A DNA stretch of 26,559 nucleotides, taken from positions 1-26,559 of the IMG/VR virus record IMGVR_UViG_3300045747_000119. The stretch is one strand, 5' to 3'. Below the pieces are notes generated by a model. That model searched no databases, was not told the DNA's origin, and saw only the letters and a program-made list of their open reading frames with translations. How positions within the stretch are numbered: the stretch's first letter is position 1; each line of letters starts with the position of its first letter. This DNA comes from a virus. Position numbers and translations under genes: made by a program. This document shows, in pieces, positions 3,165-10,210 of this stretch.

Positions 3165-4394
3165 ATGGACGTAATACACGAGTATAATAAAGGTACAGAA
3201 CTATTAGCCCAAGGTAAATGGAAAAAAGCTATGTCTATATTTAAAGCCTGCTTTAAACTATATAAATGTAGAGAGTTAGCAGTTAACTTAGGTAATTGTT
3301 TTAGGGCTAACGGCCAAGAGCTAGAAGCGTATAAAATGTACCAATTCGCGGCTAAAGAAGATACTCCCGCATTAGACCCAACCACTATTAAACACGCATA
3401 TAATAATCTTGGCTTAGCAGAATATACGTTGGGCAATACGGACCTAGCTATTGAATACTATACTAAAGCTATTAAACTAGACCCTAAATTTTGGGATGCC
3501 TGGTGGAATTGTAGTACAGCAGTACTAAGAAAAGCATCTACCAACGGAACTTCTGCAGATTTTGCTAAGGGCTGGGAGATGTATAATGCTAGATTTTTAA
3601 AAGCCGCACCAGTTGCCCTTAAAAATAAAAAAGAGAATTTACTATTTTGGACTCCAAGAACTAAAGTTGGTTCTATAATAGTTCTTACTGAACAAGGTAT
3701 TGGAGACGCCATAATGTTTGGTAGATATATAGAATATCTACGAGACTATGCAGATAAAGTATATGTACAATGCGCTCCTTACCTATATCCTATATTTAAT
3801 TCTATAGAGGGAGTAGAGTGCACAGATGATGCTATTAACGTGGATGTAGAGTATGCATACCCTATATGTAGTTTAGCACAATGTTTTGATTTTATACCCT
3901 CATCCGAATGGCTGCACTTTACAAATAAAAGAGAATTTGATGATAAAACTCGTCCTAATATCGGTATTGTCTTTAGTGGCAGCAATACTCATACTAATAA
4001 TCGCTATCGTAGCGTTGACGTGGCTAGGTTTCATAGGCTTGCTAAGTATGCTAATCTTTATTGCCTTACACCTGGTTTTAAAAGCAATAAATTCATTAAA
4101 TCGCTTCCTATTAACTCGTGGATTGATACAGCAGAATATATTAACGGACTCGATCTTATCATTAGTGTCGATACATCGGTAGTACATTTAGCTGGCTCTA
4201 TGGGCAAGGAAACATGGGTGTTACAGCCTATGCAAGAAACCGACTTTAGATGGGGGGAGGGAGTTGAGAAGTGTCTATGGTATAACTCAGTAAGAATATT
4301 TGAAAATCCCAGAGACTGGACAGTAACTTTTGATAAGGTAGAGGCTACTCTAGTAAAGTGGATTGAGGAACGTAATGCTAATAATATCTCGTAA
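3165..4394 (+). CDS. TPR-containing glycosyltransferase (GT-B, GT9/GT41-like)
   Basis: A 409-aa protein whose ATG directly follows the TerS stop codon. Residues about 3-125 form three tetratricopeptide-like repeats (for example NNLGLAEYTLGNTDLAIEYY and KAIKLDP). From about 165 comes a GT-B glycosyltransferase domain like that of bacterial TPR-GT proteins: the loop EQGIGDA at 176-182, the SGSNTHTNNRYRS motif at 271-283, and the donor-site motif DTSVVHLAGSMGKETWVL at 336-353, followed by a W-Y-containing end. Relatives carry sugars from nucleotide donors to proteins or surface polymers. The acceptor here is unknown: capsid or tail protein, host surface or DNA are all possible. Its place between TerS and TerL is unusual. 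The last 20 bases overlap TerL. Confidence 0.85.
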   Translation: MDVIHEYNKGTELLAQGKWKKAMSIFKACFKLYKCRELAVNLGNCFRANGQELEAYKMYQFAAKEDTPALDPTTIKHAYNNLGLAEYTLGNTDLAIEYYTKAIKLDPKFWDAWWNCSTAVLRKASTNGTSADFAKGWEMYNARFLKAAPVALKNKKENLLFWTPRTKVGSIIVLTEQGIGDAIMFGRYIEYLRDYADKVYVQCAPYLYPIFNSIEGVECTDDAINVDVEYAYPICSLAQCFDFIPSSEWLHFTNKREFDDKTRPNIGIVFSGSNTHTNNRYRSVDVARFHRLAKYANLYCLTPGFKSNKFIKSLPINSWIDTAEYINGLDLIISVDTSVVHLAGSMGKETWVLQPMQETDFRWGEGVEKCLWYNSVRIFENPRDWTVTFDKVEATLVKWIEERNANNIS

Positions 4395-5684: not shown

Positions 5685-6251
5685 ATGATAATCTCGGGAA
5701 TATATAAACTAACTTTTAGAAGTGGTAATTACTATATAGGTAAGAGTAATAATATTGATCGCAGATGGTCAGAGCACTTCGATAAATTTAGTAAAGGAAA
5801 AGCCGCTAAAAATATGCAGGCGGAGTACTTCGAGTACGGATACCCTAGTCGCGAAGTAATATGGGGATGTCATTCAGACCACTTAGATATAGTAGAGACA
5901 TATTTTATAAATAATATGTGGTCTAATAAGATACTAAATACAACTAGACCCCCGCCCCTTACCAATGCAGACTACAAGGTACTACTAAGTGACCCAGAAA
6001 TATTAAAGAATTCCACAGCTAGTGTAGTACAGGCCCTACAAGAACAAGGAAAGAAAATAAAAAACTTATCTATAGAACTAGACAGGACTAATTTAGAATG
6101 TGATTATGAATTAGATCAAATTAAGAAGGGTACGAAGATACCTAAGCTGGAAAAAGAGATTCAACTTCTAAAGAGGGAATCTCAAACACTTACTGAAGAA
6201 GTGTATAGACTTAAACATCGCGGATTCTTCTCCCGCTTATTCAATTTATAA
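5685..6251 (+). CDS. GIY-YIG endonuclease with C-terminal coiled coil
   Basis: A 188-aa protein. The GIY-YIG nuclease core fills residues about 3-85: GIY at 5-7, YIG at 17-19, the catalytic Arg in the DRRW segment (25-28) and the metal-binding Glu71 in VETYFI. Residues about 103-175 are charged heptad-like coiled coil, then a short hydrophobic C-terminus (FFSRLFNL). Free-standing GIY-YIG enzymes in phages are often homing endonucleases. The position just after TerL, two bases past its stop codon and without its own clear ribosome binding site, would also fit a packaging-linked role. No DNA-binding domain of the usual homing type is visible; the coiled coil may mediate oligomerisation instead. 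Confidence 0.85.
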   Translation: MIISGIYKLTFRSGNYYIGKSNNIDRRWSEHFDKFSKGKAAKNMQAEYFEYGYPSREVIWGCHSDHLDIVETYFINNMWSNKILNTTRPPPLTNADYKVLLSDPEILKNSTASVVQALQEQGKKIKNLSIELDRTNLECDYELDQIKKGTKIPKLEKEIQLLKRESQTLTEEVYRLKHRGFFSRLFNL

Positions 6252-7058: not shown

Positions 7059-8243
7059 ATGAATTTAAACCCTCTTAGTTGGTTTAAGAAAGAAAATCCC
7101 GCGCAGTCGTATATTGCGCACGAACATGGAAGTAACATATACAGTAATGCACCTATAACATATGCACAAGCTTTTGACAAATTAGAGAGTGTTAATAGAG
7201 GAGTATCTTTAATAGTAGGAGCCTGCTCCAGTCTAGATTATGATGTTAAAGATAAACTTACTCAAGGACAAGTATCGGCGGTTAGACAAAAAAGTTTAGT
7301 TAATATATTAAATACTACGCCTAATCCGTACCAATCAGCACAAGAATTCAGAACTCATATATTTACAGATTTTATCCTAGAAGGTAATATATTTATATAT
7401 TATGACGGTTTATACTTATATCATTTACCTGCGTCTAAAATGACGGTAGAACCAGATGATAAAACCTTTGTAGCTGGGTATACGTATCATGGAATTACTA
7501 AATTTAATCCATCAGAAATTATACATATTAAAGATCTAAGTAGTACCTCTGTATATAGAGGTACTAGTAGATTAGTATCTTCTGATAGAAGTGTTAAAAC
7601 CCTATATAAAATGCAGCAGTTTCAAGATCAATTTTTTGACAACGGAGCTATAGCTGGTATAGTAATCGAAACAGATAATACATTAAGCCAAATAGCAAAA
7701 GATAGAACAATCGCTAACTGGAAACAAAAATACAGCGTAAAAAACGGTGCTAGACAGCCAATGATCCTAGATAGCGGATTAAAACTAAAAAGCATCGGAG
7801 ATACTAATTTTAAAGATATGGACTTTGATAGTTCTATTACAGCCCATAACACAAAAGTACTAACAGCACTAGGTGTACCCCCAATTCTTTTAGATGGAGG
7901 TAATAACGCTAATATATCCCCTAATCTACGATTATTTTACTTAGAAACCGTTTTACCTATAGCTCGTAAGTTTACTTCGGCCGTAGAACGCTTCTTTGGA
8001 TATGACATAGAGGTAGTTACTTCAAACGTATCATCCCTTCAACCGGACATAAAAGATATCGCAGCATACCACGCATCATTGGTTAACGGGGGTATAATCT
8101 CCCCAAATGAAGCGCGTGCGGAGTTACGTTATCCTCCAATGCCTGATAGTGATAGTTTAAGAGTACCAGCGAATATAGCAGGTTCCGCTGTTAATCCAGG
8201 AGTTGGTGGTGCCCCTCCTAAGGATAAAAATCCCGCACCGTAA
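7059..8243 (+). CDS. portal protein (HK97 family)
   Basis: A 394-aa protein that should form the dodecameric portal at the capsid vertex through which DNA enters and to which the neck attaches. Family signs are the RGVSLIVGACSSLDYDV opening near residue 47, the long stem region, ALGVPPILL at about 270 and NGGIISPNEARAELRYPPM near 343. The C-terminal tail is short, flexible and Pro/Gly-rich. AAGGA lies five bases before the ATG and overlaps the stop codon of the HNH gene. Length is normal for the family. The order HNH-portal-protease/capsid is classical. Confidence 0.95.
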   Translation: MNLNPLSWFKKENPAQSYIAHEHGSNIYSNAPITYAQAFDKLESVNRGVSLIVGACSSLDYDVKDKLTQGQVSAVRQKSLVNILNTTPNPYQSAQEFRTHIFTDFILEGNIFIYYDGLYLYHLPASKMTVEPDDKTFVAGYTYHGITKFNPSEIIHIKDLSSTSVYRGTSRLVSSDRSVKTLYKMQQFQDQFFDNGAIAGIVIETDNTLSQIAKDRTIANWKQKYSVKNGARQPMILDSGLKLKSIGDTNFKDMDFDSSITAHNTKVLTALGVPPILLDGGNNANISPNLRLFYLETVLPIARKFTSAVERFFGYDIEVVTSNVSSLQPDIKDIAAYHASLVNGGIISPNEARAELRYPPMPDSDSLRVPANIAGSAVNPGVGGAPPKDKNPAP

Positions 8244-8251
8244 GGAGTCTT

Positions 8252-10177
8252 ATGAAAAAAGATAAAGTTTTATACCTTACGCAGCAATTTACAAAAGATA
8301 CAACACCAATGCTATCAGACACTATTGATTCTATCAATATTGAAGGATATGCAAATACTACACAAGTAGATAGAGTTGGTGATGTAATCCCTATGACAGC
8401 ATGGAATGATGCTTTAGTTAATTACTTGAAAAACCCTATTATATTAGCCTATCATGAAGATGACCAGCCTATAGGTAGAATGGTTGATCATAGAATTGAT
8501 GCACAGGGTTTCTGGGTTAAAGCAAGAATCTCAGCCGCTGCGGAAGATGTATTTAATTTAGTAAAAGATGGTGTACTTACAGCATTTAGCGTAGGATTCA
8601 CAATCAAAGATGCTATGTATGATGCAGTAACAGATTTATTTATTATCAAGCAACTAGAACTTCTAGAGATCTCGGTAGTATCAATCCCCTGTAATCAAGA
8701 TAGTACATTTAGTTTGTCTAAGGCTTTTGATAGTGCCGAAGATTATAGTAATTTTAAAAGTCAGTTTGCTACAAAAGAAGAATCAGCTAAAGGGCTAGAA
8801 CTTCCAGAAGCTAAGCAACTAGACACAATCACAAAGGAATGGAATATGGATCCAAAAGAATTGGAACAAATGTTAGCTAAAGCAGCTACAGAAGCAGCAA
8901 CAAAGGCAACAGAAGCAATCTTAGCTAAACAAGTAGCACAAAAAGAAGCAGAAGTAAAAGCTGCTGCAGAAGATGCTGCTCTTACTAGTAAAATTGCATC
9001 TGTGATTAAGAGTACCGACTCTGGGGCAGAAAGATTGCTTGCTGATATTGAAAAGCGTTTTGCTGATCAAACCGAAGCATCGAAAAATGTTTTAGCAGGT
9101 CTTGAAGCTTCTATAAAAGAAAAAGCAACAGAACTTGAAACTATCCAAAAGAGCAAAATGTCTTTTGCAGATAAAGGAGCTGAAACTTGTTCATATGATG
9201 AACGTGAAAAGTCAGTTATGCTTGCTAAGATTATGAATAAAAGCATTGACCAAACTAAGTTTGGTGCTGCTACAATTCAAAAAGCAGGTACACACATGGC
9301 TTCTGCTACTTGGGAACTTGAAGTTTCTACTAATATGGAAGCTGAAATTCGTCGTCGTTTAGTAGTTGCTCCATTGATTCGTTCAATCAGCATGAATACT
9401 AATGTTATGACTATCCCTGTCAATCCAGAAGCGGGTGTAGCAACATGGATGGCTAATACATCCTTCGGTACAACAGCATCTGCAGGCACTACTCAAACTC
9501 ATCAACTTAAAGAAATTACTCTTAATGCATACAAAGTGGCAACCGCCGAGTACTTAGCATACGAAGAAGAGGAAGATACACTATTGATTCTTCTACCAAT
9601 CGTACGTGATGCTATGGTTCGTCGTGTTGCTCGTGCAGTAGATAAAGCGTATTTAGTTGGTGCAGGTAGTGGTGCTGACCCAGTTAAAGGTCTTGGTATC
9701 TACGATGCAACTTCAGTAGTTGTACCAACAAATACTGGTGTATGCACTATTGCTAATCTACGTGCTATGCGTAAAGATCTAGGCTATTGGGGACTTGACC
9801 CAGCTGAAGTAGTCTACGTAGTTTCTACAGATGTCTACTACGATTTGCTAGATGACACTACTTTCCAAACAATGAATCAAGTTGGGCCTCAAGCAACCTT
9901 GCTAACAGGTCAAGTTGGTCAAGTTGGTAATAGCCCAGTTCTAGTATCTGATTCATTTGGATCTAAGGCCGGAGGTACTAGTTCAGCCACTACTAACATT
10001 GGAGCTATTTGCCTAGCCGCAGGAAACTTCCTATCAGGAAATCAACGGGGTCTACGTTTTGATACACAAGATCTAGTTGAAACTCAACGTAAAGTATTAG
10101 TAGCTAGCCTACGTACTGGCATGACTCAACTTTCTACCGTTAATGGTATGGGCGTTTCAACACTTCGTTGGTCGTAA
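8252..10177 (+). CDS. fused HK97-type prohead protease and major capsid protein
   Basis: One 641-aa reading frame with two proteins usually made separately. Residues 1-158 are the prohead protease: DRVGD at 40-44, His68 in AYHEDDQPIG, Ser113 in AFSVGF and the LEISVVSIP motif around 138-146. Residues 199-305 are helical and coiled, like the scaffolding delta domain. From about 305 comes the HK97 capsid fold, with RRVARAVDKAYLVGAGSG near 460 and the C-terminal RKVLVASLRTG and TLRWS. The protease would cut away the delta domain and itself during maturation. AAGGAG precedes the ATG closely. Arginine codons change from only AGA in the protease half to nearly all CGT in the capsid half. A hairpin terminator follows. 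Confidence 0.93.
   Translation: MKKDKVLYLTQQFTKDTTPMLSDTIDSINIEGYANTTQVDRVGDVIPMTAWNDALVNYLKNPIILAYHEDDQPIGRMVDHRIDAQGFWVKARISAAAEDVFNLVKDGVLTAFSVGFTIKDAMYDAVTDLFIIKQLELLEISVVSIPCNQDSTFSLSKAFDSAEDYSNFKSQFATKEESAKGLELPEAKQLDTITKEWNMDPKELEQMLAKAATEAATKATEAILAKQVAQKEAEVKAAAEDAALTSKIASVIKSTDSGAERLLADIEKRFADQTEASKNVLAGLEASIKEKATELETIQKSKMSFADKGAETCSYDEREKSVMLAKIMNKSIDQTKFGAATIQKAGTHMASATWELEVSTNMEAEIRRRLVVAPLIRSISMNTNVMTIPVNPEAGVATWMANTSFGTTASAGTTQTHQLKEITLNAYKVATAEYLAYEEEEDTLLILLPIVRDAMVRRVARAVDKAYLVGAGSGADPVKGLGIYDATSVVVPTNTGVCTIANLRAMRKDLGYWGLDPAEVVYVVSTDVYYDLLDDTTFQTMNQVGPQATLLTGQVGQVGNSPVLVSDSFGSKAGGTSSATTNIGAICLAAGNFLSGNQRGLRFDTQDLVETQRKVLVASLRTGMTQLSTVNGMGVSTLRWS
8846..10177 (+). CDS. major capsid protein from an internal in-frame start (predicted)
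   Basis: Inside the fusion gene an ATG at 8846 (residue 199, MDPKELEQML) is preceded by AAGGA at 8834-8838, seven bases away, which is optimal. The resulting 443-aa protein would be a complete delta domain plus capsid protein, beginning just where stand-alone HK97-type capsid proteins begin. Capsid protein is needed in far larger amounts than protease, and the switch to CGT arginine codons downstream of this point (16 of 18, against 0 of 4 upstream) fits a separately, strongly translated product. Whether both products are made is not proven by sequence. Confidence 0.6.
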   Translation: MDPKELEQMLAKAATEAATKATEAILAKQVAQKEAEVKAAAEDAALTSKIASVIKSTDSGAERLLADIEKRFADQTEASKNVLAGLEASIKEKATELETIQKSKMSFADKGAETCSYDEREKSVMLAKIMNKSIDQTKFGAATIQKAGTHMASATWELEVSTNMEAEIRRRLVVAPLIRSISMNTNVMTIPVNPEAGVATWMANTSFGTTASAGTTQTHQLKEITLNAYKVATAEYLAYEEEEDTLLILLPIVRDAMVRRVARAVDKAYLVGAGSGADPVKGLGIYDATSVVVPTNTGVCTIANLRAMRKDLGYWGLDPAEVVYVVSTDVYYDLLDDTTFQTMNQVGPQATLLTGQVGQVGNSPVLVSDSFGSKAGGTSSATTNIGAICLAAGNFLSGNQRGLRFDTQDLVETQRKVLVASLRTGMTQLSTVNGMGVSTLRWS

Positions 10178-10186
10178 TATAAAGTT

Positions 10187-10210
10187 GGGGGAGGCACCTC
10201 CCCCTTCTTT
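10187..10210 (+). terminator. intrinsic terminator after the capsid gene
   Basis: GGGGGAG (10187-10193), 4-base loop, CTCCCCC (10198-10204), then TTCTTT. Nine bases after the capsid stop codon. It should lower expression of the connector genes relative to capsid. Confidence 0.8.

Follow-up and report, generated by a model that had tools for sequence, protein, structure and literature searches.

A phage protease-capsid fusion frame as a candidate nested gene with a conserved internal start and a coding-embedded RNA stem-loop

The DNA analysed here, referred to as the window, is the whole stretch of 26,559 nt (positions 1 to 26,559) of the IMG/VR virus record IMGVR_UViG_3300045747_000119. One open reading frame in it encodes both a prohead protease and a major capsid protein. 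The features of this locus, given in window coordinates, are as follows:

8241-8247, plus strand: TAAGGAG, Shine-Dalgarno (SD) sequence of the full-length fusion, read from the sequence and overlapping the portal stop codon (8241-8243)
8252-10177, plus strand: fused frame of 641 aa with prohead protease, delta (scaffold) domain and HK97/T5-type major capsid protein (TIGR01543, TIGR01554, Peptidase_S78, Phage_capsid)
8327-8719, plus strand: S78 protease domain, residues 26-156, from the profile match
8760-8824, plus strand: conserved RNA stem-loop within the linker codons, directly 5' of the internal ribosome site, based on covariation and fold stability
8783-8799, plus strand: apical hairpin UCAGCU-AAAG-GGCU(a)GA, with the lowest synonymous change of the whole frame
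8834-8838, plus strand: internal SD sequence AAGGA, conserved as nucleotides
8840-8854, plus strand: small hairpin UGGA...UCCA whose loop contains the internal AUG; less strong than the main stem-loop
8846-8848, plus strand: ATG (Met199), the internal start codon, aligned with an ATG in relatives
8846-10177, plus strand: candidate inner product, a capsid precursor of 443 aa (MDPKELEQ...), framed from the internal ATG
8846-9280, plus strand: delta (scaffold) domain, long helices predicted at residues 201-249 and 259-302, 3' boundary approximate
9281-10174, plus strand: mature capsid part, with an approximate boundary near the invariant K344
10187-10204, plus strand: terminator-like hairpin just past the capsid stop, with equivalents in relatives

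The first-pass annotation had placed protease and capsid in one frame, and this holds: positions 8252-10177 are open for 641 codons and both profiles match. The protease part belongs to the HK97-type prohead proteases of family S78 (TIGR01543, 70.3 bits, cut-off 59; PF04586, 59.4 bits). H68 and S113, which we take from family knowledge to be the active-site histidine and serine, are unchanged in an alignment of 26 diverse relatives. The C-terminal part has the HK97-fold major capsid profile (TIGR01554, 39.6 bits, cut-off 27.5; PF05065, 43.9 bits). The protein falls outside the prohead protease/MCP fusion family NF045541, scoring 52 bits where the cut-off is 525, with a match confined to residues 64-299.

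Relatives were collected from IMG/VR. A first scan found 80 fused loci; one of these is identical to the window, and the rest show 50-76% identity. Because the junction is covered by one of the six patterns of that scan, a second scan relied on patterns confined to the protease domain; this set was thus not chosen for the junction, and it reached down to 46% identity. Two extra fused loci, at 35% and 43% identity, came from genome contigs. The fused relatives form a large T5-like group and are uncultured contigs, and the frame is open across the junction in the window and in all aligned relatives.

The AAGGA and the ATG named in the first-pass annotation lie exactly at 8834-8838 and 8846-8848, with a spacing of 7 nt. 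From 8846, where that annotation had a normal-sized capsid precursor with a delta domain begin, the frame encodes 443 aa; the separate capsids of T5-like phages have 458-468 aa. An ATG stands in the Met199 column in 159/159 rows of fused relatives covering the junction, where some contigs come from both scans. The junction of a divergent 160th relative (L167), placed by its own sequence, reads CAGGAGAAAAACGT-ATG. Across 26 diverse members, Met199 is the sole invariant residue between residues 170 and 261. Synonymous change is suppressed at residues 195-203 (observed/expected 0.23, against about 1.0 elsewhere in the frame). The internal SD is not the top in-frame match in every relative; it ranks 1-3 among in-frame starts in 125/159. 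The locus therefore has the marks of a nested in-frame pair, namely an internal start whose own SD is under selection.

The SD is not the site of strongest synonymous constraint; this lies 50-70 nt 5' of the ATG, where a 7-codon window centred on residue 179 has an observed/expected ratio of 0.14 (z -11). A two-tier stem-loop folds here in nearly every relative and ends about 10 nt before the SD. No other nucleotide-level signal in the frame is as strong as this stem-loop, which was absent from the first-pass annotation. The full structure was taken from a single-sequence fold and afterwards tested by pair counts; RNAalifold on the raw MAFFT alignment gives a 4-pair apical helix only. In 46 relatives, pair counts give 80.2% paired, compared with 27-46% in slid controls, and doubly changed cells number 52 against 23.2±3.9 after shuffling. 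A covariance model matches 58/62 further loci; in these, counted on an alignment (A4) that was fitted to the model and is biased towards structure, 83.5% are paired, two-sided changes occur in 20/25 pairs, and doubly changed cells number 79 against 27.7±4.4. The stem-loop is also more stable than versions of it with shuffled synonymous codons, with a mean z of -2.14; the values for ten control windows range from -1.08 to +0.10. Rfam 15 gave no match above the gathering score at 8760-8860, and the stem-loop model found nothing when run on unfused T5-like loci. By eye, TCAGCTAAAGGGCTAGAA resembles the T3 promoter core; this candidate promoter was rejected, as each locus has a single copy, the rest of the window has none, and its bases form stem pairs that covary. 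Covariation of base pairs indicates a structured RNA and not a motif at the DNA level.

Two roles can be suggested for the stem-loop. It may act as an insulator that keeps the AUG free, and this is partly supported by folding predictions averaged over the relatives, in which its presence raises mean AUG accessibility (0.845 vs 0.752, p=1e-5). For the SD the predicted gain is not clear (p=0.10), and none is predicted for the window's own sequence. It may also protect an mRNA 5' end. It would then either insulate the start or mark the 5' boundary of a capsid cistron. At the other end, each of the 44 relatives for which this region is covered has a strong hairpin, usually followed by T residues, within 60 nt 3' of the capsid stop; this hairpin, too, was absent from the first-pass annotation.

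We read the frame as a nested gene that yields a little protease-capsid fusion and much plain capsid precursor from the internal start, and give this reading a probability of about 0.85. The idea of two products from one frame had been put forward in the first-pass annotation and is supported by the comparison: the ATG is universal (159/159), the SD is kept, synonymous change is suppressed, codon usage breaks, the T5-like genes match, and an RNA element and a 3' hairpin flank the capsid part. Ribosomes starting at 8252 would make the full protease-delta-capsid fusion, and those starting at the internal AUG at 8846, with its own SD and upstream stem-loop, would make the delta-capsid precursor in far larger amount. 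Fusion and precursor would co-assemble via their common capsid part, so that the protease would enter the procapsid on a minority of subunits. A cut at the delta/capsid boundary would then strip delta from both forms and leave a single mature capsid protein. We infer that both products are made, and likewise their ratio, their co-assembly and the convergent cleavage; a dosage of few fusions and many precursors is suggested by codon bias and by the biology of such heads. If the protease were on every subunit, a T5-size procapsid would hold hundreds of proteases. A nested start would offer an easy route by which a few proteases enter in cis while most of the protein made is plain capsid protein.

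The most credible alternative, itself rather unlikely, is that the capsid precursor starts at the internal AUG mainly on its own shorter mRNA, arising from an internal promoter or from RNase processing at the stem-loop, with levels set at the RNA level. The conserved stem-loop before the SD and the terminator-like hairpin past the stop do bound the capsid cistron, and it is common for a processed phage mRNA to be shielded by a hairpin at its 5' end. However, the conserved motif is unlike a phage promoter in having one copy per locus and no other in the window, and sigma70-like matches show no excess between 7000 and 10400 (8, against 11.2±3.6 in shuffles). The promoter form of this alternative is further weakened by the covariation, which fits a folded RNA better than a DNA element.

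It is improbable that the full-length fusion is the only product and that the junction is conserved as protein, for example as a self-cleavage site or as the start of delta, with the SD-like bases following from a KEWNM motif. KEW-x-M is indeed frequent, and a released protease would end at the junction. Against this, the SD bases stay while the residues change: L049 has AAA-GGA-AAA, L045 has GAG-GAA, and L141 and L159 encode K-G-T and E-R-K. In L055 the SD is displaced by 3 nt and still present. All non-redundant relatives with a lysine at residue 195 encode it by AAG (43/43), although AAA is synonymous; AAG is the minority at nearly all other conserved upstream lysine codons, most of which prefer AAA. 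The suppression of synonymous change argues in the same direction, as does an expression-linked codon bias that begins here. In an AlphaFold2 model of low confidence (mean pLDDT 62, pTM 0.38), linker residues 173-200 have a pLDDT of 30-42 and no secondary structure, and the delta helices begin at 201. The linker is thus predicted to be disordered, and the conserved nucleotides sit without evident protein constraint. On this model, Met199 is the predicted natural N terminus. Judged from the alignments, the ATG, the ribosome-binding bases and the stem-loop are conserved as nucleic acid.

Codon usage gives a further view of the same boundary. Arginine codons of the window before 8846 are AGA in all four cases (8372, 8477, 8492 and 8525), and those after it are CGT in 16 cases, AGA in one (9032) and CGG in one (10046). 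With 6 non-CGT codons among 22, the chance that all four pre-start codons are non-CGT is C(6,4)/C(22,4) = 0.002 (hand calculation). The counts in the first-pass annotation were exact, but its switch is not pinned to the ATG: the first arginine codon past the start is still AGA, so that from the window alone the switch can be located no more closely than 8525 to 9056. With relatives pooled, this narrows to a change point between residues 153 and 204, and in a second set, with linker codons used, to 187-204. The change point lies about 140 residues ahead of the mature capsid part, and CGT/CGC makes up 15/15 arginine codons at residues 199-245. In 46 pooled non-redundant relatives, AGA/AGG/CGA/CGG drop abruptly past the linker, as do ATA and GGA/GGG.

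Such sharply different codon usage on the two sides could in principle also stem from the recent fusion of two genes with separate origins, rather than from expression; this explanation is very improbable. The break recurs in the 46 non-redundant relatives and again in the second relative set. Other structural genes of the window share the style of the protease part: the AGA/AGG/CGA/CGG share of arginine codons is 16/23 in TerL, 10/14 in the portal, 58/67 in the tape measure and 6/13 in the major tail gene, compared with 2/18 in the capsid part, which alone among the genes counted shows CGT-type bias. Separate T5-type capsid genes likewise lack rare arginine codons (0/21 to 0/25), and none has more than one ATA.

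One of the closest known arrangements is that of T5-like phages (Demerecviridae), whose head module has homologous proteins in the order portal-protease-capsid. In Shivani, Ceto, D51, KIT04, Kpn9-P3 and D425 the gene order is the same, and protease (191-210 aa) and capsid are separate genes, with a capsid start that aligns near Met199. In T5 the protease is pb11 and the capsid protein pb8, of which 775 subunits are assembled; the capsid precursor has an N-terminal scaffolding domain, also present in the window, that is removed by the protease (PMC5292684). The window differs from this family in lacking two separate genes with a stop codon between them and in having an RNA stem-loop without a T5-like match. 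In a capsid tree, unfused T5-like and fused rows fall on opposite sides of one branch (100/99), with L168 on a long branch. Least probable of all is that the internal start is an unused relic of a once-separate capsid gene, as the matching T5-like start might suggest, since a relic would decay and the ATG, SD and stem-loop are strongly constrained over 46-76% protein identity.

Nested head genes are known from other systems. In lambda C/Nu3 and Mu I/Z, nested protease and scaffold genes use an in-frame internal start to make a C-terminal product, which outnumbers the long form and assembles together with it. The window resembles lambda in having an internal in-frame start inside a head-protease gene, from which a second product is predicted. 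In lambda, however, the internal start yields the scaffold and the capsid has a gene of its own, whereas in the window the inner product would be the major capsid protein, with an RNA stem-loop 5' of its start. Herpesvirus UL26/UL26.5 are 3'-coterminal and encode a long protease-scaffold and an abundant short scaffold. This pairing of a long protease form with an abundant short form is similar, but the herpesvirus forms come from separate transcripts and share a scaffold, not a capsid part.

Single-gene fusions of protease and capsid are already known, from Microbacterium phage clusters EE and EL (PMC7302621) and from Rhodococcus cluster CF (PMC13313380); in the available text of these two reports an internal start is not discussed. 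Together with NF045541 and NF045540, they resemble the window in having one frame, many with an SD and ATG shortly past the protease domain, and differ in belonging to other capsid lineages. Distant fusions (NF045541-like, ClpP-type) tend to show an SD and ATG 10-62 aa past the protease domain. Among 37 long frames from genome samples, a list with a few false rows and with the protease end set by a regular expression, the mean SD score was 7.0, compared with 4.7 in synonymous shuffles (Fisher p=6e-5). The same test on six cultured-phage fusions gave no significant excess (p=0.54). Five more fusions also have an SD and ATG 20-56 aa past the protease. After the protease, Bordetella PBb002 reads AAAGGGGAAGGT-ATG (GMDPKELE), Paenibacillus Pd_22F GAAGGAGATGACTTGAAT-ATG and Paracoccus Psul1 AAGGAGAAGGCC-ATG. 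Seven unrelated fusions (L228, L271, L222, L187, L333, L335 and L342) have a good SD and ATG 20-56 aa past the protease domain. Moraxella Mcat1 was considered as a fusion control and rejected, its protease and coat being separate genes. As a general rule of fusions, the SD and ATG past the protease may be taken as a lead, not as proof.

We tentatively propose, at somewhat below even odds, that protease-capsid fusions of tailed phages are generally nested with a hidden capsid start, and that the present group evolved a dedicated, previously undescribed RNA element, embedded in the coding sequence, that sets the fusion-to-capsid ratio. In the open-access literature searched, neither an internal start in a protease-capsid fusion nor a dedicated RNA element there was found. 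A nested start of this kind would mean that the main product is often not the annotated 'protease/major capsid fusion' protein, that the capsid lengths given in databases for these phages are incorrect, and that head assembly is tuned by a conserved RNA element embedded in a coding sequence.

Several other features of the window can be mentioned. Three near-identical cassettes, at 1-130, about 868-1005 and about 1428-1545, consist of CCAGGAAAG ... AAAAAATGCTTGACA ... TATGATAAAATTGGCGC with strong sigma70-like hexamers; they are probably repeated early promoters with CCAGGAAAG as an operator-like repeat. A frame for a SprT-like metalloprotease is found on the minus strand at 196-585. A tetratricopeptide-repeat frame (3165-4394) lies between the terminase subunits, an unusual location, and a GIY-YIG endonuclease gene (5685-6251) lies immediately 3' of the large terminase gene.
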